Shown: positions 6,849-22,822 of the stretch, piece by piece
How the letters are laid out: every line of letters begins with the position of its first letter
Position numbering within the stretch: position 1 is the first letter of the stretch
From: Desulfovibrio sp.
GTDB taxonomy: Bacteria; Bacillota; Dethiobacteria; DTU022
Direction: 5' to 3'
DNA length: 52,275 nt
Assembly: GCA_020060545.1 (NCBI GenBank)
Contig: JAGUZX010000086.1
Coordinates: forward strand, 1 to 52,275
Program-made: the position numbers and the translations under genes
Notes under the pieces: generated by a model
Database searches by the model: none
Told to the model about the DNA's origin: nothing
What the model saw: only the letters and a program-made list of their open reading frames with translations

Positions 6849-6907
6849 TTGACAACAACTTATGGTTGCTTTATAATATAATCGGCATACGATAACGCTT
6901 TTCGATA
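6849..6907 (+). promoter_or_regulatory. Promoter and operator-like sequence of padR-chrA
   Basis: TTGACA (6849-6854), 17 bases and TATAAT (6872-6877). Just downstream, 6881-6907 carries ATCG-N4-TACGATAACG-N5-TCGATA. The same arrangement, with the same core CGATAACG, occurs after the promoter of the second padR at 21041-21067. Placement over the transcription start suggests a repressor site for the PadR protein itself. Confidence 0.75.
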
Positions 6908-6910
6908 CTG

Positions 6911-7246
6911 GTGGTGTTGACTGTGACCGGATTTGTCAACAAAAGTTTGTTTCAGGGTTTTATCCGCTTGCACATTTTGCACCATGCGGATGAAGCGCCT
7001 GTTTATGGTAGCTGGATGATTGAAGAGCTGTCCCATCACGGATATAAAATTAGCCCGGGAACTTTATATCCCGTCCTGCACAGCCTGGAGAAGGAAGGTC
7101 TCCTCGAACATTACGCGGAAAATGTGGACGGCAAAATCAGGAAATATTACGTTATCACCGCACAGGGCCGGGAAGCCCTTGAAGAAGCAAAGAAATATCT
7201 GGCGGAGTTGGCCGGTGAAGTCGGATTGAAAAAGGAGGATAGCTAA
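6911..7246 (+). CDS. PadR family transcriptional regulator (chrA-linked)
   Basis: 111 residues with a winged-helix PadR fold. FIRLHILHHADEAPVYGSWMIEEL is the H1-H2 region, SPGTLYPVLHSLEKEGLL is the recognition helix and turn that is diagnostic for PadR, and KIRKYYVITAQGREAL is the wing. It is a short PadR-s1 type protein whose dimerisation helix is the C-terminal EEAKKYLAELAGE. The start is GTG at 6911 or one of the following GTG/TTG codons; no strong SD is visible. About three quarters of residues match the PadR at 21068. It sits 89 bp upstream of chrA in the same direction, so it probably represses that operon; the inducer is unknown. Confidence 0.88.
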   Translation: MVLTVTGFVNKSLFQGFIRLHILHHADEAPVYGSWMIEELSHHGYKISPGTLYPVLHSLEKEGLLEHYAENVDGKIRKYYVITAQGREALEEAKKYLAELAGEVGLKKEDS

Positions 7247-7335
7247 GTTTGGTATTTTAGGATACAAACCTTGACAGTATTAAAATCAGTTTTAGAAAGA
7301 GGCCTGGAGAATAAAAGAACGGAGGAACACGGCAA

Positions 7336-8529
7336 ATGAGTAACACAGGCAGCCAGATGGTAGCAGAAACAACCAGTAAAGCCGGCATCAAGGAGCTGTT
7401 TAAATTTTTTGTCCTTATGGGAACAACGGCTTTCGGCGGCCCGGCAGCCCACTTTGCCATCATGGAGCGGGAAGTGGTTCGCAACAGGAACTGGGTATCC
7501 AAAGAAGAGTTTGTCGATGTAATGGGTCTTTTAAACCTGATTCCTGGCCCCAACTCGACTCAGATGGTTATGTATATGGGTTACAGAAAAAACAGGCTGC
7601 GGGGGATACTGGCCGCGGGCCTGGGATTTATTGTTCCGGCCTTCATCATTACTTTTATTTTATCATGGTTTTACGTTACCTACGGGCTTTTACCCCAGGT
7701 TCAGGCCGTTTTTTTTGGCATTCAACCGGTGGTTCTGGCCGTTATCCTTTCAGCCTTATGGCGTTTAGCTCCGCACGGCGTAAACAGCTGGCAAACCGGA
7801 GTTCTCTGCGGGGCAGCGGTTATCGCCTCTTTCTGCGGCGTTAATGAAGCGATAATCATCCTTGCCTCCGGAGCTATCGGCTGGTTTTGGTTTTCCGGCT
7901 GGAGGCCCGCTCCTCACAAGATATCCGGTAATTTATTGCTTGCCGCCCCCGCTTTGTTCGCATCGGCAGACAACGCACCCGGGCTGCCGGTAACCCTTCC
8001 TTCCATCTTTCTGGTCTTTACCAAAATGGCGGTTACTCTCTACGGCACAGGTTATTTATTGATCGCGTATATGCAAGGAGACCTGGTTGACGGCCTTGGC
8101 TGGCTTTCGGTGCAGCAGCTCCTTGACGTCATCGCCATCGGTCAAATGACCCCTGGCCCCTTCCTCACCACCGCCACCGCCGCCGGGATGCTCCTGGCCG
8201 GCTGGCCGGGAGCAATTGTCGCTACCATAGGGATCTTTTTGCCCTCATTCTTTTTGGTCGGCCTGCTGGGAAACAAAGTAAGTTATTTTCGTTCTTCTAC
8301 CTGGGGTAAACATATGCTTAAAGGGATCAACGCGGCTGTTATAGCCGTATTGCTGGTGGTGGCCTTCACTTTTGCCGGGGAAGTTGTTAACGGCGGTTGG
8401 ATCAGGGTTCCGGTAGTATTGGCGGCCCTGTTTCTTCTTGAACGGCTGCGCGTCAATTCAATGATATTGGTTGTAGCGGGGGGAATACTCGGTATTATCT
8501 GGCACTACATTCCAGCTATCGCCGGGTAA
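7336..8529 (+). CDS. chrA: Chromate transporter, two-domain ChrA
   Basis: 397 residues, the long CHR family form made of two homologous halves, each with about five or six membrane segments. The N-half signature FGGPAAHFAIMEREVV...LLNLIPGPNSTQM and the C-half counterpart LLDVIAIGQMTPGPFLTTAT (conserved PGP motifs) are both present. ChrA proteins export chromate, probably in exchange for or mimicking sulfate. The ATG at 7336 follows GGAGG at a suitable distance. The gene is downstream of a PadR regulator with an operator-like promoter. Its 3' end directly abuts a truncated pseudogene on the other strand, suggesting the chrA unit was inserted there. Confidence 0.93.
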   Translation: MSNTGSQMVAETTSKAGIKELFKFFVLMGTTAFGGPAAHFAIMEREVVRNRNWVSKEEFVDVMGLLNLIPGPNSTQMVMYMGYRKNRLRGILAAGLGFIVPAFIITFILSWFYVTYGLLPQVQAVFFGIQPVVLAVILSALWRLAPHGVNSWQTGVLCGAAVIASFCGVNEAIIILASGAIGWFWFSGWRPAPHKISGNLLLAAPALFASADNAPGLPVTLPSIFLVFTKMAVTLYGTGYLLIAYMQGDLVDGLGWLSVQQLLDVIAIGQMTPGPFLTTATAAGMLLAGWPGAIVATIGIFLPSFFLVGLLGNKVSYFRSSTWGKHMLKGINAAVIAVLLVVAFTFAGEVVNGGWIRVPVVLAALFLLERLRVNSMILVVAGGILGIIWHYIPAIAG

Positions 8530-9061
8530 CTAAAACTTTGGTGCAGTCAGGGGCTGTTTCCGGCAATCGAAAAATCCGCATGTTTCCACAAGAGTGTTGA
8601 TACCTTCGGCTTTGAGAAGCTTTAATAAATCTGATACAAAATCCATGTACAGGGCCGGTTCTCCGCCGGACAGGGTAACCCCGCCGCCGGAATTTTTATA
8701 AAAAGGCTTATCTTTTCGAACTAGGGCAAGGATGTCTGTACAGGACATTTCAAGGCCCACCCTGACCAGGGCGCCCGAGGGACAGGCATCAGTACAGCCA
8801 AAACAAAGGTTGCATTTGGTCCGATCGATGAAATAAAGATTGGACCCGGAGATTGCGTTAACGGGGCAAGTATCTTTACATGTTCCGCACCCGATGCAAA
8901 CCTTCGGATCAAAGGAGATTTCCACTCCTGTTTCCCGGCATTCCGGATTATGGCACCAGACGCAGGAAAGGGGGCATCCCTTGAAAAAAATTACTGTCCG
9001 TATCCCGGGCCCGTCGTGTCAGGGAATTGCCTTTTATGTCTGCTATCAGAGAAAATTTCAT
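8530..9061 (-). pseudogene. Glycyl-radical-enzyme activating protein, frameshifted and truncated
   Basis: Read from the ATG at 9061: MKFSLIADIKGNSL, then one extra base (9019) changes frame, and the sequence continues HDGPGIRTVIFFKGC and CPLSCVWCHNPEC, the radical-SAM CxxxCxxC cluster motif of PflA-type activases. Two 4Fe-4S ferredoxin motifs follow (CIGCGTCKDTCP and CNLCFGCTDACP), then GGGVTLSGGEPALY. The frame ends at FDCRKQPLTAPKF, about 180 residues in all against the 290-310 usual for the family. The SAM-binding C-terminal half is missing. No glycyl-radical enzyme gene is nearby. The broken end is at the chrA stop codon, so this is a relic interrupted there. Confidence 0.8.
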
Positions 9062-9117: not shown

Positions 9118-9549
9118 TTAAGCTTCGGGAAAATAGCGCTTCAACAAGCCTTCCAGGGCTTGGGCGTGGCGAGCCTCGTCCCGGGACGATTCGTCGAAAA
9201 GATCGTGGGCCTGGTCGATCCCGATCTCCTTGGCCTTGACGGCGGCTTCCCGCTTGCCCTTATTGGCATTGATTTCACCGTGCAGCATTTTGACCAGATT
9301 TTCCCTGGTGCTGGCTGAGATCAGGCCGTTCATCTCCGCGTACTGGGCCGCGTGAGCAGCTTCTTCCATGGCGATATCGTGCAGGACCCGCGCGATCTCC
9401 GGAAAACCTTCACGCTGGGCCTGACGGGCCATGGCCAGGTAGAGCCCCACCTCCATGGTTTCACCCCGGAAGTTCTTCTCCACCGCTTCCGCCAGTTCCG
9501 TGTCCCTGGTGGCACCCATTTGAACCCGGTTTACCAGTTCTTCTGTCAT
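9118..9549 (-). CDS. Rubrerythrin-like ferritin-fold protein without rubredoxin domain
   Basis: 143 residues forming a four-helix ferritin-like domain. The iron ligands lie in EKNFRGETMEVGLYLAMA, AMEEAAHAAQYAEM (ExxH) and FDESSRDEARHAQALEGL (ExxxH-type). The C-terminal rubredoxin (CxxC...CxxC) of classical rubrerythrin is absent, so it would need a separate electron donor. Known relatives reduce peroxide in anaerobes. It follows the PerR-type gene by 54 bases in the same direction with a GGAGGAG SD, so the two are likely co-transcribed and peroxide-inducible. Confidence 0.87.
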   Translation of the reverse strand: MTEELVNRVQMGATRDTELAEAVEKNFRGETMEVGLYLAMARQAQREGFPEIARVLHDIAMEEAAHAAQYAEMNGLISASTRENLVKMLHGEINANKGKREAAVKAKEIGIDQAHDLFDESSRDEARHAQALEGLLKRYFPEA

Positions 9550-9603
9550 CTAAATCTCCTCCTCATGGATTATTGTGCGCGGCGCTGGAGGTTCCAGTCC
9601 GCT

Positions 9604-10071
9604 TTATTCAGGCAGCCGGTTGTCGCCCGGCCCTGACGGGCCGAGATTTACCGCGTGACGCGAACAAGAGGGGCAGCTGCCGTAAAAGTTTACCTCGAGA
9701 GAATCAATCTTGAAACCTGATTTCGTCATGCCCAAATCCGCCAGGTCGGTGAACAGTTTTGCCAATCCGCCGTTCAGATCGTCGACCTGCCCGCAGCGCA
9801 GGCAGCAAAGATGGGCGTGGGGTAAAGTATTTCCGTCGTAGCGTAGATTGCGGGCTATGTTCAACTGCCAGAGAAGACCCGCCTCCTGAAAAGACTGGAG
9901 TGTTTTATAAACGGTATTCAGGCTAATCGAGGGGAATTTCTCACGAACTGCGGTGTAAACAGACTCGGCGGAAGGGTGCGTTTTATTGCCCAGTACCGCT
10001 TCAAAAACAGCCAGGCGCTGTGGAGTGATGCGAAAACCTTTTTCTTTGAGCAGGGCGGAGGCGTTCATCAA
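9604..10071 (-). CDS. perR: Fur family peroxide regulator, PerR-like
   Basis: 155 residues. The N-terminal winged helix includes GFRITPQRLAVFEAVL and SLNTVYKTLQSFQEAGLL. The dimerisation domain contains HAHLCCLRCGQVDDL and the second zinc pair FYGSCPSCSRH, giving the structural Cys4 site of Fur/PerR proteins. PerR rather than Fur is inferred from the downstream rubrerythrin and from a Per-box-like palindrome in its own promoter (10103-10119). The start is the TTG at 10071 or the following ATG. PerR uses Fe(II)-catalysed histidine oxidation to sense peroxide and usually represses itself and peroxide-scavenging genes. Confidence 0.85.
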   Translation of the reverse strand: MMNASALLKEKGFRITPQRLAVFEAVLGNKTHPSAESVYTAVREKFPSISLNTVYKTLQSFQEAGLLWQLNIARNLRYDGNTLPHAHLCCLRCGQVDDLNGGLAKLFTDLADLGMTKSGFKIDSLEVNFYGSCPSCSRHAVNLGPSGPGDNRLPE

Positions 10072-11584: not shown

Positions 11585-12010
11585 CTACAAAATAAAAGCA
11601 TTAAAGTGTTCTACGAGGCCGGAAACAGCCGCCATAACGGCCGGGGCCGGCTCCAGGGCCGTCACGCTTGCCCCTCGCTGCGCCATGGGTATGGCAAAAT
11701 CTCCGGTCCCGGCGCCGATGTCCAGCACGTCCACCCCCGGCCGGAGAGCCCCTTCGCGCTCCAGCCATGAAATAACCCGTTCCACCCGGTTGCGGGAGCG
11801 GCCCTGTTCCGGCCATCGCACCAACAGCCCGGCCAGCCCGTCCCAGTAATCTAGATTAGCGGCAGCGCCGCGGCGCCGGGTGTTAACGGACTGGCGGAGC
11901 ACTTCGTTCCAGGTTTCTATCCAGTAATGTGGCTCCTTCAGTTTTGAGCTCAATGGATAGTTATTTTCTCGCTTGCCTGTCAGCTTGCCCGCCTCCTTTA
12001 CGAAGCACAT
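11585..12010 (-). pseudogene. Class I SAM-dependent methyltransferase, C-terminally truncated
   Basis: 141 residues. The N-terminal helical part (HYWIETWNEVLRQSV...YWDGLAG) and the SAM-binding motif I VLDIGAGTGDFAIPMAQ plus the acidic end of strand beta-2 (VTALEPAPAV) are present. The sequence then passes into HFNAFIL and a stop, where the base composition drops from GC-rich to AT-rich. The remaining half of the Rossmann domain is missing (relatives are about 250-280 residues). It overlaps the end of the oppC-like gene and was evidently the last surviving gene of the ABC operon, truncated by a rearrangement near 11600. It may still be translated but is unlikely to be active. Confidence 0.75.
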
Positions 12011-12863
12011 TTTTTATCGCCTCCCCTCGCAGGCGCGGGTTCACCACTTCTTCCAGGGCATATCCGGTCAGGGCAAAAGCCAGCACCGTGAAGGTTATGA
12101 GCAGCCCCGGCGGCAGGATCCACCAAAGCCACGCCCCGGTGAGGAAAGCGCCGCGCGCCTGGGCATAGGATAAGACCATGCCCCAGCTTTTGGCCGTCGG
12201 GTCGCCCAGGCCGAGAAAGGCCAGCGACGACTCGATCAAAACGGCGGAAGAGACGGCGCGGATGAACTGGGCCAGCGCCACGGGCAAAACCCCGGGCAGT
12301 ATATGCCGGAACATGATCCGGGCATCGGCGCCGCCCAGGGCGCGGGCCGCCTGCACGTAGCCGTACTCCCGCAGGCTGAGGACCTGGGAGCGGATCACCC
12401 TTGCGGGGCCGGCCCAGGTCAGCAGGCCGATCACCAAAATAATATTGGACATGCGCGGTCCCAGGTAGGCAGCCAGCAAGATCATTAAGGGCAGAAAGGG
12501 GATCACCAACACGATATCCGCCAGGCGCATGAAAAGCGGATCCAGCCACCTCCGGTAGTAGCCGCTGACAATTCCGATGAAGGTGCCCAGGAGCAAGGCG
12601 ATGGCCGCGGCGAAAAAACCGATGGCCAGCGAAACCCGCGTCCCCCAAATAATTTCACTTAAAATATCCTGCCCGATATCGTTGGTGCCCAGGGGGTGTT
12701 GCGCCGAGGGCTTCTGGAAAGGCGGGCCCACCCTCTCGTAAGGATCGTGGGGCGCCAACCAGGGCGCAAAGAGAGCGGTGCATAAAATGAGCAGCAGCAA
12801 GGCCGCCCCGATTCTGCCGGCCCCGATTATTTTCATCGACTGGAAGATACATGCCGCGTTCAC
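11961..12863 (-). CDS. OppC/DppC-type ABC transporter permease
   Basis: 300 residues. N-terminal cytoplasmic segment and first membrane helix (AALLLLILCTALFAPWLAP), the OppC hallmark HPLGTNDIGQDILSEIIWG at about residues 55-73, and the EAA loop YVQAARALGGADARIMFRHILP in the BPD_transp_1 domain, with about six membrane segments. It starts with GTG at 12863 in a GTGA overlap with the stop of the oppB-like gene, indicating translational coupling. It forms the membrane channel with that protein, powered by the OppD/F-type ATPases upstream. Confidence 0.92.
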   Translation of the reverse strand: MNAACIFQSMKIIGAGRIGAALLLLILCTALFAPWLAPHDPYERVGPPFQKPSAQHPLGTNDIGQDILSEIIWGTRVSLAIGFFAAAIALLLGTFIGIVSGYYRRWLDPLFMRLADIVLVIPFLPLMILLAAYLGPRMSNIILVIGLLTWAGPARVIRSQVLSLREYGYVQAARALGGADARIMFRHILPGVLPVALAQFIRAVSSAVLIESSLAFLGLGDPTAKSWGMVLSYAQARGAFLTGAWLWWILPPGLLITFTVLAFALTGYALEEVVNPRLRGEAIKNVLRKGGGQADRQARK

Positions 12864-13846
12864 CTGACGTGCCTCCCTTCAATCCGCACCCGGGGGTCCG
12901 CCAGGGGATAAAGAAGATCAGCCGCCAGGTTGGCCGCGATGACGCATACCGTGACCATCATGAATGCGGCCTGCAGCACCGGGTAATCGCGCTGGAGCAC
13001 CGCCTCAAACATCAGCCTCCCCAGGCCCGGCCAGACAAAGACCGTTTCCACCACCGTCGCCCCGCTAACCACAAAGCCGAGGCTCAGCATGAACAAGGTA
13101 ATGACCGGCAAGAGGGCATTGCGAAGGACATGGCGAAAAACAATGCGCCCTTCCGGCAAGCCCTTGGCCCGGGCCACGGTGATATATTGTTCGCCCAGGA
13201 CCCCCAGGGTGGAATAGCGCACGGTCAGAAACAGGCCGGCGATGGTTACCAGGGTCAGGGTGGTCAGGGGTAAAGCCAGGTGATGCAGCACGTCCGCAAC
13301 AGCGGCCCAGCCGGTGTAGCCGGCAAAAGGGCTTTGCGCCCCGAACACGGGAAACCAGCGCAGGGAAGACCCGAAAAGGGCAACCAGAATCATCCCCAGC
13401 CAGAAAGAGGGCATGGAATCGAGAAAAATGAACAGAGATAACATGCCCAAGTCGCTGATACGCCCGCGGCGCCAGGCGGCCAGGGTTCCGCAGACCACCC
13501 CGGCAAGGGCGGAGAGGGCCAGGGCGGAGCCGGTCAGCAGCACTGTCCAAGGCAGGCGTTCCCAAATGATTACAGCCACGGGCCGCCGCTGCCTGTAGGA
13601 ATACCCCAGGTCGCCTTTGGCCAGTTGGCCCAGGTAGAGAGTAAACTGCCGCCAAAGGGGCTGGTCGAGGCCGTGCCTGGCCATGATTTCCTCCCGCTCC
13701 GCTCGAGACAGAAGGCCCACGTCCTCACCGGCCAGCAGCTGCAGCGGCGACCCCGGCATCAGCCGCGGCAAGGAAAAGTTGAGGGCCAGGGTGAGAAGAA
13801 GAACCAGGCCGTACTGCATTAGTTTGCGTCCCCAAAACTGCAGCAT
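12860..13846 (-). CDS. OppB/DppB-type ABC transporter permease
   Basis: 328 residues from the ATG at 13846, chosen because GAGGCGGTGAAAAGG lies just upstream; the frame stays open to 13924 but that part is not conserved-looking. MLQFWGRKLMQYGLVLLLTL is the first membrane segment, followed by the OppB-type PGSPLQLL...RHGLDQPLWRQFTLYLG region, the GDLGYSYRQRRPV motif and the EAA loop YITVARAKGLPEGRIVFRHVLRN. The 3' end overlaps the oppC-like start by four bases. The substrate cannot be read from the permease; this family carries peptides, nickel and other small solutes. Confidence 0.92.
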   Translation of the reverse strand: MLQFWGRKLMQYGLVLLLTLALNFSLPRLMPGSPLQLLAGEDVGLLSRAEREEIMARHGLDQPLWRQFTLYLGQLAKGDLGYSYRQRRPVAVIIWERLPWTVLLTGSALALSALAGVVCGTLAAWRRGRISDLGMLSLFIFLDSMPSFWLGMILVALFGSSLRWFPVFGAQSPFAGYTGWAAVADVLHHLALPLTTLTLVTIAGLFLTVRYSTLGVLGEQYITVARAKGLPEGRIVFRHVLRNALLPVITLFMLSLGFVVSGATVVETVFVWPGLGRLMFEAVLQRDYPVLQAAFMMVTVCVIAANLAADLLYPLADPRVRIEGRHVR

Positions 13847-13928
13847 CCTTTTCACCGCCTCGTAAAGGCGGCCGGCGCCAACCGGAAAAGTAAGGCGGCC
13901 CGGGTGGCGCCGGCCACAGGCCAATTAC

Positions 13929-15569
13929 TTACGGAACCGGCACGAAAGAGAGTTTGTTCAAGATCCCCTGCCCGTTTTGATATACCCAGCCGTCATAAGT
14001 GCCCGGCCGGTAGGCGTAGATACCGTCGGGATAAAATAAGGTGACAAAGGGTACAGTATCGGCTACCGCTGACTGAAGGTCTGACATCAGCTTGCTCTGC
14101 CTATCCGGGTCGATGGTACCCGCCAGCTCTTCTACCATGGCATCAACGTTTTCTCCGGCATATGCGCCGATGTTGAGGCTACCCCGGGTGTTTAAGTCCG
14201 AGTGGAACAAGGCGCCCAGGCGGGCCGGATCCAGCATCACCGGAGCCGACCAGCCCCAAATGGCCAGGTCGTAGTCCCGCCCCCTGGTCACATCAAAATC
14301 CGGCCAGACCAGGCTGTCCACGGTGCTGGAATCCAAAGCTTTGACTTTTACGTTCATGCCGATTGCAGCCAGGCTTTCAGCAATGATCTCCGCAGTGCGC
14401 ACCCGCAGCGGATCGTTGGAACGAACCAGCAGTTCAAATTCCTCATCGCCGAAGGAATCGGCAAACCCGGTTTCTTCCAGAAGAGCGCGGGCCTGGGCCG
14501 GGTCTGTTATATGCTTAAGGCCGGTTTTATAACCGGGCAGCGCCGGGTGGAGATAACCTGGGTTACCGGCGGTGCCGTAGCCCAGCAGGACGGTTTCCAC
14601 CAGGCCGTCTATATCTATGGCCCTGGCGATGGCCAGGCGCACTCTCGGGTCGTTAAAAGGCTCACGCTCGTTGTTTATCTGCAGCAGGGTGCTGACAAAG
14701 CCGGGCCCCGTCACCACCGCCACGTCAGTGGTGCCGGAAAACTCCTCCACCAGCTCGGGAAGCAGGCTCCGGGCGGCGATATCAATATCCCCCACCCGCA
14801 GGGCGGTGAAGGTGGCGGTCTGGTCTTCAATGATTACGATACCGATTTCATCCACCGCGGGTTTGCCCCGAAAATACCCGGCATTTGCTTCCAGCTTGTA
14901 AGTTTTGTCCGCTTCATGGCTGATCAGCCGGTACGGCCCGCTGCCGGTATTGTCCGTAAAGCTGCCGGGATCGGTTACGTCCCGCCAGATATGGGCGGGG
15001 ATAATGGGCACGTCTGCCAGCGGGTTCATCATGAACGCGGGCACGGGATCGCTCAGCTTTATTGTAAAGTTGAGTTCATCTTCAACCTCGATGGACTCCA
15101 CCGCGGCCACCGCTTTGGTCCACCGGGCGTGCTTGTGTTTCCTGTAGTATTCATAACTGAATTTCACGTCATCCGCGGTCAGAGGCGTCCCGTCGTGCCA
15201 GGTCACCCCTTTGTGCAGGGTAAAGGACCAGGTCAGCCCATCCGCATCGGGTTGATACTTTTCTACCAACCACGGCTGAGGGACATTTTGCTCATCCAGC
15301 TGGAACAAGGTGTCGTAAATCAGCAGCAGCAGGTTGTGCCCGGGATAGCCGCTCACGTAGGTATAGGGGTTCAGCGACCCCTCATCCCTGGCTATGGCCA
15401 GCCGCACATGGATCGGCCCCTGGTCATCTGCCGGCGCTGCTGCCGGCGAGCAAGACGCCGCCACCAGCAGCAGGGTAACCGCAAACAGGATCGCCAGCAA
15501 TATAACGCTCCACCTGCCTGTACTTGCGTAGTTGAAGGTTTTCCCTTTCATCTTTGTCTTACCATTCAT
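13929..15569 (-). CDS. Family 5 ABC substrate-binding lipoprotein
   Basis: 546 residues. A basic N-terminus, a hydrophobic stretch ending LLVAASC (lipobox, Cys at about residue 40) and a Ser/Ala/Pro linker mark a lipoprotein anchored outside the membrane. The mature part has SBP_bac_5 landmarks: ARDEGSLNPYTYVSGYPG, WHDGTPLTADDVKFSYEYY, GSGPYRLISHEADKTYKLE, DPRVRLAIARAIDIDGL and a C-terminal domain ending with SFVPVP. GGAGG lies 7-8 bases before the ATG. Family members bind peptides, nickel complexes or heme. Its place between the PIG-L-like gene and the permeases shows it is the receptor of this importer. Confidence 0.92.
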   Translation of the reverse strand: MNGKTKMKGKTFNYASTGRWSVILLAILFAVTLLLVAASCSPAAAPADDQGPIHVRLAIARDEGSLNPYTYVSGYPGHNLLLLIYDTLFQLDEQNVPQPWLVEKYQPDADGLTWSFTLHKGVTWHDGTPLTADDVKFSYEYYRKHKHARWTKAVAAVESIEVEDELNFTIKLSDPVPAFMMNPLADVPIIPAHIWRDVTDPGSFTDNTGSGPYRLISHEADKTYKLEANAGYFRGKPAVDEIGIVIIEDQTATFTALRVGDIDIAARSLLPELVEEFSGTTDVAVVTGPGFVSTLLQINNEREPFNDPRVRLAIARAIDIDGLVETVLLGYGTAGNPGYLHPALPGYKTGLKHITDPAQARALLEETGFADSFGDEEFELLVRSNDPLRVRTAEIIAESLAAIGMNVKVKALDSSTVDSLVWPDFDVTRGRDYDLAIWGWSAPVMLDPARLGALFHSDLNTRGSLNIGAYAGENVDAMVEELAGTIDPDRQSKLMSDLQSAVADTVPFVTLFYPDGIYAYRPGTYDGWVYQNGQGILNKLSFVPVP

Positions 15570-15620
15570 TTTCCTTACCTCCTCTTAATCTTTTGCACAT
15601 CCATACATACTGAAACCAAG

Positions 15621-16376
15621 CTACAACAGGTAAGTGAGTTCAAAGCGGCCGGCCCGCCGGAACGGTTCAGCCAGGGCAAAACCGGTGTGGCTGAGCAAGC
15701 CGTGATAAAGATGAAAGGCGCGGTCCATTTCCCGGTGCAGGGCGCGCCCCAGCTCTACCGGCACCTCTTTGACCTGTTCGTAGTCGCTTAACAGAGAACG
15801 CATGGCGCTCTGCGGCACCATTTTTCCCAGCACCGCCGCGCTAAATGCCAGCTGGCTGGACAGCTCGGCCATGGCCTGCTCCTTGAGGGGGTAAATCTCA
15901 GAGATATCGACAACACAGTTCGGGTGCTCGGGGGTCATAAAGTAAATGCTTCTCACCAGGTGAGGATCAAGCCCCCCGCATTCTTCAATTTTCCAGTCCC
16001 TGGCGGCCAAACTGACCGCTTCCAGATAAAGAATCATCGCTTCCCGCCGGTCGGGGTCCAGGTCGAGAAAAGAATGTTCCGGGTCCTGGGTGATTACGAT
16101 CTCCGGGCGGACCTCCCTGATCAGGCGCACAATCTTTATTTTAGAGGCCGTGTCCGCATGCACCTCACCGCTGGCAAAGTCCAAAAAATGAACTTTAACC
16201 CCCAGTACCGCAGCGGCCTTTTGCATCTGCTCCCTGTTTTCAACCCTAGCCAGGGAGACGGCCGCTTCTACCTTCCCACCGGCCTGACCATGCTTGGCCA
16301 GGGTTCCACCGCACTCCACGATCTCCATGCCGTAGGTTGCCAGAAGCAAGATATCTTTTTCCCCTTGCAATAACAT
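15621..16376 (-). CDS. PIG-L/LmbE-fold protein lacking the metal ligands
   Basis: 251 residues with the PIG-L Rossmann-like fold: an N-terminal strand, then ECGGTLAKHG at 21-30, followed by RPEIVITQDPEHSF at 90-103. Active PIG-L deacetylases carry (A)HPDDE before CGGT; here the same positions read (A)TYGME (14-18), so the zinc-binding His and Asp and the catalytic Asp are lost. The second motif, normally HPDHR, reads DPDRR (107-111), so that His pair is gone as well. It is therefore unlikely to be an ordinary zinc deacetylase; it may be a pseudoenzyme or use another chemistry. It lies inside an ABC importer operon between oppF and the binding protein. Confidence 0.8.
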   Translation of the reverse strand: MLLQGEKDILLLATYGMEIVECGGTLAKHGQAGGKVEAAVSLARVENREQMQKAAAVLGVKVHFLDFASGEVHADTASKIKIVRLIREVRPEIVITQDPEHSFLDLDPDRREAMILYLEAVSLAARDWKIEECGGLDPHLVRSIYFMTPEHPNCVVDISEIYPLKEQAMAELSSQLAFSAAVLGKMVPQSAMRSLLSDYEQVKEVPVELGRALHREMDRAFHLYHGLLSHTGFALAEPFRRAGRFELTYLL

Positions 16377-16395
16377 CTCTCCTTTCTATTTTAGA

Positions 16396-17355
16396 TCATC
16401 GCAAATGACACGCAGCCGTGCGCTCTTTCCCCACCTCCTTTAAAACTGGTTTTTCCTCACAACATATGCCCGTCGCTTCAGGACAGCGCGGATGAAAGCG
16501 GCAGCCCCGGGGAGGCCTGGAAGGGTCGGGAGGCTCCCCCTTAAGAGTCGCTTTCAATACTGTTTTTTGCCGCGGATCTGGAGCCGGTACCGCTTCTACC
16601 AGCGCCCGTGTATACGGATGGCTGCCCTGAAGATGCAGCTGGCTTGCCGGGATTATCTCTACGATTTGACCCAGGTACATCACCGCCACCCGGGCAGCGA
16701 GACAGCTTACCGCCGCCAGGTCGTGAGAGATAAAGAGATAGGATAAACTGAGCCTTTCTTTTAATTCCCGCAGCAGGTTGAGCACCTGCGCGCGGATGGA
16801 AACATCAAGACTGGAAACCGGTTCGTCGCAAACCAGCAAAGCCGGCTCCAGGGCCAGAGCCCGGGCGATATTGATACGCTGGCGCTGCCCCCCGCTGAAT
16901 TCGTGCGGGTATTTGTCAGCGTCTCCCGGTTCCATGCCAACCAGGTCCATCAGCTCCAACACCCGCTCGCGGCGTTTCTCACGGGAGATGCCGTAATTGA
17001 CCAGGGGCTCCTCGATAATCGCGCCCGCTTTCCAGCGCGGGTTTAAGGATGATGCCGAATCTTGAAATATGATCTGGATATGCCGGCGCAGCCGGCGCAG
17101 CTTCTTTCCCGTGCAGCCGCTAATTTCTTGCCCGTCAAAGTAAATTTCTCCCGCGGTTTTCTCTTCCAACCGTGTCACCAGCCGGGCAAAAGTGCTCTTG
17201 CCGCAGCCGCTTTCCCCCACCAAACCCAGTACCTCGCCCCGTTCCAACGTTAAAGAGATGCCGTCTACGGCCCGCACTTTCGCCCGCCTGTATTTACCAA
17301 AATAAAAACTGCCTTCGTAGTGTTTGACCAGATTTCTTACTTCTAAAAGACTCAT
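16396..17355 (-). CDS. OppF/DppF-type ABC transporter ATP-binding protein
   Basis: 319 residues from the ATG at 17355, eight bases after GGAGGTG and in an ATGA overlap with the upstream oppD-like stop; the open frame to 17388 is not needed. Walker [14 protein letters not shown]-loop [14 protein letters not shown], signature [15 protein letters not shown], Walker [15 protein letters not shown] and the H-loop SHDLAAV are all intact. The C-terminal oligopeptide-transporter extension contains [12 protein letters not shown] and the cysteine cluster [15 protein letters not shown] seen in OppF/DppF proteins, where it binds an Fe-S cluster or metal. Confidence 0.93.
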
Positions 17356-18344
17356 CTTTTTGACACCTCCACCATAGCAGGCAGGCAAAGCTGGTGGCAG
17401 GCAGCCGTGTGACCGGGACCAACTGTTGTTAATGGAGGCCTTTTACCCCGGCATGCCGTGAAAGCTTCCGGACAGCGGGGCAAAAAAGCGCATTCGTCAG
17501 GGAGATTGAGAAGGGACGGCGGCTGACCTTTAATGGGCACCAGCGCCTCCTGGCCAAAACGGGGGATGGAACAGAGTAAAGCCCGGGTGTAAGGATGGGC
17601 CGGGCGGTCAAAGAGCTCCGCCACAGGCGCGCGCTCCACGATGGAACCGGCGTACATTACCGCCACTGAATCGGCCATCGCCGCGATGACCCCCATGTCG
17701 TGGGTAACGAGGATAACCGCCATTTTCAGCTCTTCCTGCAACCGTTTCAACTCCGACAGGATTTGGGCCTGTACGGTGGTATCCAGAGCGGTCGTCGGTT
17801 CATCTAAAATTAATACTTTGGGGTGCAGCAAGAGCGCCATGGTCAGCAGCACCCGCTGGCACATCCCTCCGGAAAGTTCCAAGGGGTAACAGCGCATGAG
17901 CCTATCCGGATCGGGGAGTCCCATCCGGTGCAGCTGCACCACGGCCATTTTTTTGGCTAGACCGGCGCTCACCTTCTCGTGTGAGAGAACGGTTTCCACT
18001 AACTGTAGACCGACGCTCAACACCGGGTTCAGCGACGCCAGCGGATCCTGGAAAACAAGGGCGATTTCCCGCCCCCGCAGACGCCGCAACTCCCGCGGCG
18101 GCGTTTTCAGCAAGTCGCGGCCGTTTAACCAAACTTCTCCGGAATTTATTCTCCCGGGCGGTTTGACCAGGCCGGAGATCGAGAGGGCCGTAACGCTTTT
18201 ACCGCAGCCGCTTTCTCCGACCAAACCCAGGGCGTGACCCGCCTCCACCGTAAAACTGACACCGTCTACAGCCTTGACGACACCTTGACGGGTGTAAAAA
18301 TGAGTGGAAAGATTATGGACTTTTAAGGCAGAAGTTGAAAACAC
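17352..18344 (-). CDS. OppD/DppD-type ABC transporter ATP-binding protein
   Basis: 330 residues starting with GTG at 18344 after AAGGAAGG. Walker [15 protein letters not shown]-loop [13 protein letters not shown], signature [15 protein letters not shown] (the usual Q after GG is M), Walker [15 protein letters not shown] and H-loop THDMGVIA are present. The C-terminal part has the family motif [13 protein letters not shown] and the cysteine cluster [14 protein letters not shown]. It pairs with the OppF-type ATPase that follows with a four-base overlap. Confidence 0.93.
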
Positions 18345-18412
18345 GGATATCCTTCCTTGTGAGACCCGGCATTACTCCAGGGGTCTATTTTGTAGATTGC
18401 TGTATCTTTAAC

Positions 18413-19399
18413 TCAATCGACTTTGGCCGCACAAACCCGGCAGTAGAGACCTTCCTTTCCTGAAATGCTTTTTTCCAAAGATACAATTTCGCCGCATCGA
18501 GAACACGCGGTATAACGAAACCGCCCGGAAAAGCGCGGCGGCTGCAAGGTAACCATTTTTTTCACAAACAGCTGCTCCTCGGGAAGCTCCAAAATTGCCT
18601 GGACAGCCGTATCAACAGCCTGACGGTATTGCTCCAGTTCAGTTTCAGTTCCCTGGCCGGCGAAAATCTTGTTGTCCAGCTCCCCGGTCAACCCCAGGTC
18701 AACCGCGCGGCTCACCAGGGCCAACCGCAACACTTCTTGCGGCTCACGGTTGGCGTTTGTCCGCCCAAAATAATAAACATGTTTTCCCAGGTCATAGGCT
18801 AAAAAGTTTTGATTGCCGATGGTGCAGCCGGTCAGAAGCTGAAGCGCTTCAATGGCTGAACTCATATTCTCCGCCAGAATAAAAAATTCTAATGCGTTTT
18901 CCCTGGAAAGGCCCACTTCTCGTTGGGCAACCAAAGCGGCCCGATAGCCCACGGCCAGCTCGGGACAAAGGTGACCGTGGTAGTAAACCACGTTGGCCAG
19001 CTTTAACGGGACCATGGCCATTTTACTCGTCCCCCGGGGAAGCGCTGCTTTATTTCGGGCGCTGTCATCCTCTGCATTATCATCAATAGAATCTGTTCGT
19101 TTAGAATCCTCACCATCAACCCTGTACTTCAAAATCCACCGGCTCCTGCTCACGGCCTGGGTCTGATTTTCGCGCTCCAATGAAAGACAAAACACACCCC
19201 GGTTGGTCAGGATAAGGTGCTGCAGATGCCCCTGGGCGCTTTTAAAAAAATGCAGCGGTTTTAAAACTTCATGGTGGTTGTCCCGCCACTGAAAGCCCAG
19301 CGGGGTCTGCTGGGTGTTGTCATATTGAACCGGCACCTCTTCCTGGATAAAGCAAATATCCTCTTTATCTATTTTGGAGATTATTTCACGAAAATCCAT
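18413..19399 (-). CDS. FmdE-like protein with C-terminal zinc ribbon, first gene of the ABC operon
   Basis: 328 residues. The N-terminal about 110 residues are not recognised and end in a charged, low-complexity linker (DSIDDNAEDDSARNK). Residues about 125-270 match the FmdE domain: VYYHGHLCPELAVGYRAA carries the His and Cys of the metal site, and LLTGCTIGNQNF the second Cys. The last 30 residues form a zinc ribbon (CSRCGE...YCRVCAAK). FmdE was named from formylmethanofuran dehydrogenase operons, but stand-alone members are common in anaerobes and their role is unclear. A 68-bp gap separates it from oppD. AAGGAGTG precedes the ATG. The context suggests handling of a metal or of the imported ligand; this is inference. 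Confidence 0.8.
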   Translation of the reverse strand: MDFREIISKIDKEDICFIQEEVPVQYDNTQQTPLGFQWRDNHHEVLKPLHFFKSAQGHLQHLILTNRGVFCLSLERENQTQAVSRSRWILKYRVDGEDSKRTDSIDDNAEDDSARNKAALPRGTSKMAMVPLKLANVVYYHGHLCPELAVGYRAALVAQREVGLSRENALEFFILAENMSSAIEALQLLTGCTIGNQNFLAYDLGKHVYYFGRTNANREPQEVLRLALVSRAVDLGLTGELDNKIFAGQGTETELEQYRQAVDTAVQAILELPEEQLFVKKMVTLQPPRFSGRFRYTACSRCGEIVSLEKSISGKEGLYCRVCAAKVD

Positions 19400-21008: not shown

Positions 21009-21067
21009 TTGACAGCAGGTTTCGGTTGTTCTAAAATAAAATCGAATAACGATAACGAATACCGATA
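21009..21067 (+). promoter_or_regulatory. Promoter and operator-like sequence of padR-fetAB
   Basis: TTGACA (21009-21014), 17 bases and TAAAAT (21032-21037), then 21041-21067 with ATCG-N4-AACGATAACG-N5-CCGATA. The arrangement and core CGATAACG match the chrA-linked padR (6881-6907), pointing to a shared binding site. Confidence 0.75.
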
Positions 21068-21397
21068 ATGGTGATGACGCTGCTGGCCGGATTCGTCAAC
21101 AAAAGGTTGTTTCAAGGTTTTATCCGCTTGCATATTTTACACCATGCGGGTGAAGCGCCTTTTTATGGAAGTTGGATGATTGAAGAGCTGTCCCAGCATG
21201 GCTATAAACTCAGCCCGGGAACTTTATACCCGATCCTGCACAGCCTTGAAAAGGAAGGCTTGCTTGAACAATATCCCGAAAATGTGGACGGAAAAATTCG
21301 TAAATACTGCGTTATCACCGCAGCAGGCCGGGCCGTATTTGTAGAAGCAAAAAAGTACCTGTCGGAACTGGCCGGTGAAATTGGGACGGAAAGGTGA
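21068..21397 (+). CDS. PadR family transcriptional regulator (fetAB-linked)
   Basis: 109 residues, a close paralogue of the PadR at 6911. GFVNKRLFQGFIRLHILHHA and GEAPFYGSWMIEELSQHGYK begin the winged helix, SPGTLYPILHSLEKEGLL is the diagnostic recognition region, and KIRKYCVITAAGRAV the wing. Its stop overlaps the fetA-like start (GTGA), so regulator and exporter form one transcript. The ATG at 21068 has no clear SD, as with its paralogue. Given the conserved operator-like block it probably represses its own operon. Whether it senses iron is unproven. Confidence 0.88.
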   Translation: MVMTLLAGFVNKRLFQGFIRLHILHHAGEAPFYGSWMIEELSQHGYKLSPGTLYPILHSLEKEGLLEQYPENVDGKIRKYCVITAAGRAVFVEAKKYLSELAGEIGTER

Positions 21398-22056
21398 TCG
21401 GGATGTTTGAGTTTATCGATGTAAAGTTTAAGGATATTATCGACTTACCGGCCCTCTGCATTGAAAAGGGGAAGATCACCACCCTGGTGGGGACGAGCGG
21501 CAGCGGTAAAACAACGATTCTTAAATTGATGAATAAGATGCTCTCCCCAACACAGGGGGTGATCTTATTTAACCGGACCAACCTCGGCCTGATCAATTCT
21601 GTCACGCACCGCCGGCAGGTGACGATGCTTTCCCAAAACCCGGCCATGTTTGAAGGAAATATCAGGGACAATTTGCAGGTCGGCTTAAAGTTCCAGGAGA
21701 AGGATATCCCCGGCGACAATGTGCTAAAGGGGATATTGGAGCAAGTAAAGTTGAACAAACCGCTTGACAGCCCGGTAAACAACCTATCGGGAGGAGAAAA
21801 ACAAAGGCTTGCCCTGGGCCGGATCCTTCTTTTCAACCCCGAGGCCTATCTCCTTGATGAGCCCTCCGCCGCCCTGGATGATCAGACGGAGGAAGCAATC
21901 ATCGAGATGGTAACAGGGCACGTGAAAGATAATAACAAAACCCTCGTTATGGTTACCCATTCAAAAGCAATCGCCGCAAAATATGCCGATACGATCATCG
22001 AGATAGCCGGCGGCAGGTGTTCCGGCAGGAGGGGTCATGATGAACGGGATCATTGA
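21394..22056 (+). CDS. fetA: FetA-like ABC ATPase of an iron exporter
   Basis: 220 residues. Walker A TLVGTSGSGKTT, Q-loop TMLSQNPAMFEG, signature NLSGGEKQRLALGRIL, Walker B AYLLDEPSAALDDQ and the H-loop VTHSK are present. The short length and the pairing with a FetB-type permease identify the YbbL/FetA family, which with FetB exports iron and helps peroxide resistance in E. coli. The start is GTG at 21394, overlapping the padR stop; the ATG at 21403 is also possible. The C-terminal tail (GGRCSGRRGHDERDH) overlaps the fetB start by 20 bases. Confidence 0.87.
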   Translation: MIGMFEFIDVKFKDIIDLPALCIEKGKITTLVGTSGSGKTTILKLMNKMLSPTQGVILFNRTNLGLINSVTHRRQVTMLSQNPAMFEGNIRDNLQVGLKFQEKDIPGDNVLKGILEQVKLNKPLDSPVNNLSGGEKQRLALGRILLFNPEAYLLDEPSAALDDQTEEAIIEMVTGHVKDNNKTLVMVTHSKAIAAKYADTIIEIAGGRCSGRRGHDERDH

Positions 22057-22822
22057 TCTGACGGTGTGGCAGGTTGCGCTCGCTTATCTTTTTGTATTAA
22101 TCGTTCTTTTCATCGTGAGAATTAGGAACATCAACCGGGAAAAAGAGATTATTTTATCATCGGTCAGAATGACCCTGCAGCTTATTTTGGTGGGCTATAT
22201 CCTGGTCTATATCTTCAGATACCCCAACCCCCTGGTCACGGTGGGTATCATCCTGCTGATGGAAGCTTTCGCCGTTTATACGATCTTCAAGAAATTCAAA
22301 GCGAAGTTGACAAGGCCTTTCAAAAATGTGATCACATTGTCCATGGCTGCCGGCACGCTGGCTTGCCTGCTCTACTTCCTCCTCGCCGTGGTGCGCGTCG
22401 AACCCTGGTACGCGCCGCAATACTTTATCCCGATCGCCGGGATGATCATTGGCAACTCGATGACGGGGATATCACTTGGCGTCAAATCGCTCCTGGAAGG
22501 AATGACCACCCAAAAAGCCTTAGTGGAAGAAGCGCTAAATCTCGGCGCAACACCGCGGGCGGCGTCAAGAAACATTATTGACAGCACTTTTGACGCGGCC
22601 ATCATGCCGACTATAAACTCGATGATCGGCATGGGCATAGTCTTTTTGCCCGGCATGATGACCGGCCAAATTCTGGCCGGCGCCGCTCCCACAACAGCCA
22701 TCGCCTACCAGATCGCGATTATGCTCGGCATCCTGGGCGCCGTAGCGCTTACGGTCATCATCATGCTCCAGCTTGGCTATCGCACTTTTTTCAATAAGGA
22801 AGACCAGCTTAATGATCTCTAA
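22037..22822 (+). CDS. fetB: FetB-like iron export permease (UPF0014)
   Basis: 261 residues with about seven membrane segments. Family landmarks are SSVRMTLQLILVGYILVYIF, the PIAGMIIGNSMTGISLGVKS motif, and EEALNLGATPRAASRNIIDSTFDAAIMPTINSM followed by GIVFLPGMMTGQILAGA. These match the UPF0014/FetB family. AGGAGGGGTC precedes the ATG. The operon padR-fetA-fetB parallels padR-chrA in this window, both linking a PadR to a metal or oxyanion exporter. Confidence 0.9.
   Translation: MMNGIIDLTVWQVALAYLFVLIVLFIVRIRNINREKEIILSSVRMTLQLILVGYILVYIFRYPNPLVTVGIILLMEAFAVYTIFKKFKAKLTRPFKNVITLSMAAGTLACLLYFLLAVVRVEPWYAPQYFIPIAGMIIGNSMTGISLGVKSLLEGMTTQKALVEEALNLGATPRAASRNIIDSTFDAAIMPTINSMIGMGIVFLPGMMTGQILAGAAPTTAIAYQIAIMLGILGAVALTVIIMLQLGYRTFFNKEDQLNDL

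Follow-up and report, generated by a model that had tools for sequence, protein, structure and literature searches.

In Bacillus cereus SJ1, the PadR gene chrI lies directly before the CHR transporter gene chrA1, and the two genes are co-transcribed and induced by chromate (PMC2936356). A PadR gene before chrA is therefore already known from this system; the part of that report on which we draw describes no operator for ChrI. The solved structure closest to the regulators studied here, by sequence and by fold, is Rv3488 of Mycobacterium tuberculosis (5zhc, 5zi8, 7wh4), which has the same histidine set. Its gene neighbourhood presumably differs from theirs. FetAB of Escherichia coli combines an ABC ATPase with a UPF0014 permease.

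The DNA analysed is a stretch of 52,275 nucleotides (contig JAGUZX010000086.1), hereafter called the window. As in the ChrI-ChrA1 system, a PadR gene directly precedes a CHR transporter gene. In contrast to that system, a second, paralogous PadR gene with the same operator precedes fetAB genes. The features of the two loci are as follows.

6849..6877, + strand: promoter of the padR1-chrA operon, TTGACA-17-TATAAT, 12/12 consensus bases
6881..6907, + strand: predicted operator 1, ATCG-GCATA-CGATAACG-CTTTT-CGATA, three half-sites in 13-bp steps
6911..7246, + strand: padR1, Rv3488/ChrI-like PadR regulator (PF03551, E 3.3e-22); likelier start GTG 6923
7336..8529, + strand: chrA, two-domain (long) CHR transporter of 397 aa (PF02417, E 1.9e-80; TIGR00937 above cut-off)
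21009..21037, + strand: promoter of the padR2-fetAB operon, TTGACA-17-TAAAAT, 11/12 consensus bases
21041..21067, + strand: predicted operator 2, ATCG-AATAA-CGATAACG-AATAC-CGATA
21068..21397, + strand: padR2, sister paralogue of padR1 (PF03551, E 2.7e-18); likelier start ATG 21074 or CTG 21083
21394..22056, + strand: fetA-like ABC ATPase gene (PF00005, E 7.5e-28), overlapping the padR2 end by 4 bases
22037..22822, + strand: fetB-like UPF0014 permease gene (PF03649, E 9.6e-86), sole copy in the genome

The first-pass annotation had described two PadR genes, about three quarters identical and with the same promoter layout, preceding chrA and fetAB in operons 14 kb apart. This description holds. 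PadR1 and PadR2 are 77-79% identical, both promoters are of a strong sigma-A type with 17-bp spacers (12/12 consensus bases for padR1, 11/12 for padR2), and the separation of the two operons is about 14 kb. Downstream, two Chromate_transp domains were found behind padR1, and ABC ATPase and UPF0014/FetB domains behind padR2. The genes do lie at the proposed positions 6911 and 21068, but translation is improbable from there, since almost nothing would separate the operator from the start codon and a ribosome-binding site would not fit in. Alignment with one relative (L096) and others suggests GGTGGTG (padR1) and GGTGATG (padR2) as ribosome-binding sites, the likelier starts being GTG 6923 for padR1 and ATG 21074 or CTG 21083 for padR2. 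Both gene sets look like operons: padR2 runs four bases into fetA, and the 89 bp between padR1 and chrA, which share a strand, carry no terminator-like site on the + strand.

Both PadR proteins belong to the PadR family (PF03551, 78.7 and 66.2 bits, cut-off 27). Unlike Rv3488 itself, they score below the cut-off of its NCBIfam equivalog NF053635 (122.5 bits for padR1 and 106.8 bits for the other copy, cut-off 140). The FetA and FetB models are among the best matches of the fetAB pair, but the equivalog cut-offs are again not reached (137.4 bits vs 292 for FetA; 154.6 vs 410 for FetB, though the UPF0014 family itself is recognized). The names Rv3488, FetA and FetB are therefore used at family level. 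A further difference from the E. coli pair is the position behind a PadR gene with its own predicted operator. For ChrA, PF02417 matches in two stretches and TIGR00937 scores 253 bits against a cut-off of 171.7; padR1 lies directly upstream in the same orientation, which is the ChrI layout. Identity of ChrA to the CHR proteins found behind PadR in Bacillaceae is only about 25-28%. Chromate and iron are putative substrates, inferred from the family names of the pumps. A second CHR locus in the genome (G000:C117:7161-8194) comprises two neighbouring single-domain frames; none of the operator matches listed lies there.

A common block, ATCG-N5-CGATAACG-N5-CGATA, directly follows the -10 element at 6881-6907 and 21041-21067, as had been noticed. 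It was absent from 100 shuffles of the window, even when 3 mismatches were allowed. The block could have occurred at random throughout the 2.5-Mb genome; instead, these two sites were the only perfect ones. With the reverse-strand readings of these two sites set aside, all remaining matches carried 3 mismatches, and none of them was a convincing further target in this genome. The shared operator is thus real, it accompanies a duplicated regulator, and the two transporter operons are its only strong sites in the genome. Between operators 1 and 2, the half-sites are identical at 17/17 bases and the spacers at 2/10. A third PadR, on contig C26, was rejected as a relative of the cassette, having only the general Pfam domain in common.

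The conservation of the operator was then examined upstream of PadR1 homologues, taken from the genome collection by protein sequence alone, with promoters disregarded. Almost everywhere, the upstream architecture was TATCG-N5-CGATATCG-N5-CGATA. The pair TATCG-N5-CGATA, with at most 1 mismatch and the 5-bp spacing exact, was found upstream of 82/84 homologues (exact match in 50), as compared to 0.7 matches on average in shuffled upstream sequences. With any other spacer length between 0 and 12, the pair was found at 0-3 loci among the 84 upstream regions, save for length 11, with 28 loci. A third half-site followed at a 13-bp step in 66/82 cases, vs about 3% expected by chance. One of the two failures was a distant PadR (L107). 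In the other (L050), the operon order is fetA-fetB-padR and the site precedes fetA, where the promoter is expected, rather than padR; what the element accompanies is therefore the promoter of the operon, rather than just the padR gene. Of 28 homologues sampled separately within the phylum, 27 had TATCG-N5-CGATA. Nine relatives belonging to the same family or order had the three half-sites, with 0-2 mismatches in all, a short distance downstream of promoter-like sequences. When 30 genomes were scanned with the three-part site, each contained at least one match, mostly exactly one. Four extra places were followed up, of which two lay at a second padR copy; the other two, in Halalkalibacter (G070 C36:21293) and Clostridium CF012 (G072 C42), lay inside genes and look like chance.

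Overall, the block is the predicted operator of a conserved PadR subfamily, which we delimit here as Rv3488/ChrI-like by invariant H21, H25 and H43 together with TATCG-N5-CGATA half-site pairs at the operon promoter. Both window copies have these features. The open papers that were searched contained no description of a PadR operator of such form, of a PadR-fetAB circuit or of pump exchange, and no co-mention of PadR with fetB; in the one paper examined that has CGATATCG together with PadR, the sequence belongs to primers only, and the Rv3488 papers listed have 1-3 mentions of it each.

The pump beside this PadR varies with lineage. CHR transporters accompany it in Bacillaceae, and FetAB does so in many anaerobes, among them the order-level relatives examined. 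A P-type cation ATPase occurs in Caldisericota, Acidobacteriota and Chloroflexota, in one case together with a CDF exporter. Alicyclobacillus has a PiT/PHO4 carrier, Erysipelotrichaceae MFS and CHR, one further locus (L029) TauE, and Bathyarchaeota an ABC exporter. When pump labels were mapped onto a tree of 97 PadR proteins, 14 changes were required, as compared to about 35 with shuffled labels, showing that pump linkage is inherited yet repeatedly exchanged. A concrete operator is predicted for a PadR subfamily standing before many metal and anion pumps. As the DNA site is constant and the pump varies, the site could be used to find pumps answering the same signal. This family-wide operator with pump exchange is a stronger result than the twin pair itself.

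PadR proteins are dimers on inverted repeats, and an operator over the transcription start is the usual position of a repressor. A PadR dimer would bind TATCG-N5-CGATA pairs, three half-sites giving room for two adjacent dimers. The operator would cover the expected transcription start after the -10 element, so that padR and the downstream pump genes would be blocked. PadR would bind an effector, which is most probably a metal ion coordinated by the invariant histidines on helices 1 and 2; the repressor would then leave the DNA and the pump would be made. The promoter-operator-padR cassette, of about 400 bp, was duplicated, one copy coming before a different pump. We consider it probable, as a whole, that the duplicated promoter-operator-repressor cassettes are self-regulating repressor-pump units released by metal and forming one two-operon regulon. 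This reading starts from the duplication, the conserved operator and its restriction to these two loci in the genome, the arrangement of the operons and the conserved histidines, all visible in the sequences, whereas repression, cross-binding, the metal effector and the pump substrates are what we infer from them.

The case for cross-binding comes from the recognition-helix region (residues 48-60), where PadR1 and PadR2 differ only by V55I, so that both proteins should recognize both sites. With operators and recognition helices practically unchanged, either PadR is likely to bind both operators, and the two would together act as a two-operon regulon. The cross-regulation proposed in the first-pass annotation would thus be a reasonable reading. 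Other differences between the two proteins are in helix 4 and the C-terminal tail, and those in helix 4 mean that effector or dimerization could have diverged. They leave room for two insulated circuits, in which the operators are alike by descent and each PadR serves mainly its own promoter and its own effector. This arrangement we find unlikely, including its assignment of an oxyanion to PadR1 and a divalent cation to PadR2. It would suit pumps drawn from an anion family and a cation family, as well as the induction of ChrI by chromate (PMC2936356), but identical half-sites and a near-identical recognition helix make strict separation at the DNA level difficult to envisage, and the histidine set is equal in both PadRs. 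Moreover, two Clostridium species (L048, L086) have chrA and fetAB side by side and a single padR in divergent orientation, with the operator in between, so that here one PadR naturally faces both pumps.

Concerning the effector, H21, H25, H43, E39 and E103 are invariant in 94/94 aligned rows where present, with the caveat that E103 falls close to where the Rv3488 fragment ends. H21, H25 and H43 are absent from the three distant PadRs compared. Position 24 (H24) is His or Tyr in the subfamily, and H57 is nearly invariant. In the PadR1 model (pLDDT 92), H21, H24 and H25 lie on helix 1, E39 in the C-terminal part of helix 2 and H43 just past it. The invariant histidines suggest a metal effector, and a metal would most simply account for the FetAB, CDF and P-type ATPase neighbours and the histidine set alike. 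Thiol redox sensing is unlikely because there is no conserved cysteine (none in PadR1, one in PadR2). The chief evidence for an anion instead is the induction of ChrI by chromate (PMC2936356), an anion for which a cation site is not obviously suited; an oxyanion signal would also be compatible with the PiT and TauE carriers found as targets. An oxyanion (chromate, sulfate, phosphate or sulfite) acting family-wide, with FetAB and P-type ATPases induced within a wider stress response, would agree with chromate induction of ChrI (PMC2936356) and with PiT/PHO4 and TauE neighbours. We judge it rather improbable, as FetAB, CDF and P-type cation ATPase genes are neighbours in several phyla and the invariant histidine/glutamate set would be typical of metal sites.

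As for the duplication, padR1 and padR2 coding DNA is 82% identical (third codon positions 66%), whereas the 100 bp upstream of the -35 element agree at only 32% between the loci and are thus unrelated. The duplicated unit therefore runs from the -35 element to the end of padR. The shortness of PadR leaves many forks weak in the tree of 97 PadR proteins. In this tree, PadR1 and PadR2 pair as sisters (99/96), outside the clade linked to fetAB in the window's own order. We therefore attribute the pair to a duplication with a change of pump. Half-sites were held while free positions drifted between the copies. A chance origin of the block is ruled out by the shuffles and by its conservation across homologues, and that it is a functionless residue of what are clearly duplicate cassettes is highly implausible, since the spacers turned over (2/10) with all half-site bases (17/17) kept and since the same architecture before homologues in several other phyla, a family-wide footprint, contradicts it.

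Two-copy genomes are rare in a 398-genome sample of the phylum: the window's own is the only one among 31 PadR-positive genomes. They do occur elsewhere, and PadR-chrA and PadR-fetAB are each widespread; the window pair is thus less isolated than it looks. A Clostridiales MAG has two padR-fetAB units (L042, L147). Alicyclobacillus acidiphilus has two padR copies with the operator, one before a PiT/PHO4-type carrier (L073) and one before chrA (L148), which is a close parallel to the window pair.

Going beyond the metal-released two-operon regulon, it is possible, and proposed here tentatively, that one effector, probably a metal ion, induces both CHR and FetAB via two interchangeable PadRs, within a cross-phylum module of one operator and exchangeable pumps. 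If so, the CHR proteins encoded downstream of this operator would have a role in metal or iron stress in addition to chromate export. Because the twin operons belong to one genome, they allow a direct test of whether one sensor serves chromate-type and iron-type pumps.

The region between the two operons carries several genes on the - strand. A glycyl-radical-enzyme activase gene (8530-8925) covers only model positions 42-164 of 293 and looks truncated. A PerR-like Fur-family regulator gene (9604-10071) lies beside a partial-rubrerythrin ORF (9118-9549), making 9118-10071 an iron/peroxide neighbourhood, as judged from these gene assignments. Finally, an Opp/Nik-type ABC importer (11961-19399), with a binding protein, two permeases, two ATPases and an adjoining FmdE-domain gene, lies between the two exporters and is possibly a metal or metal-chelate importer.
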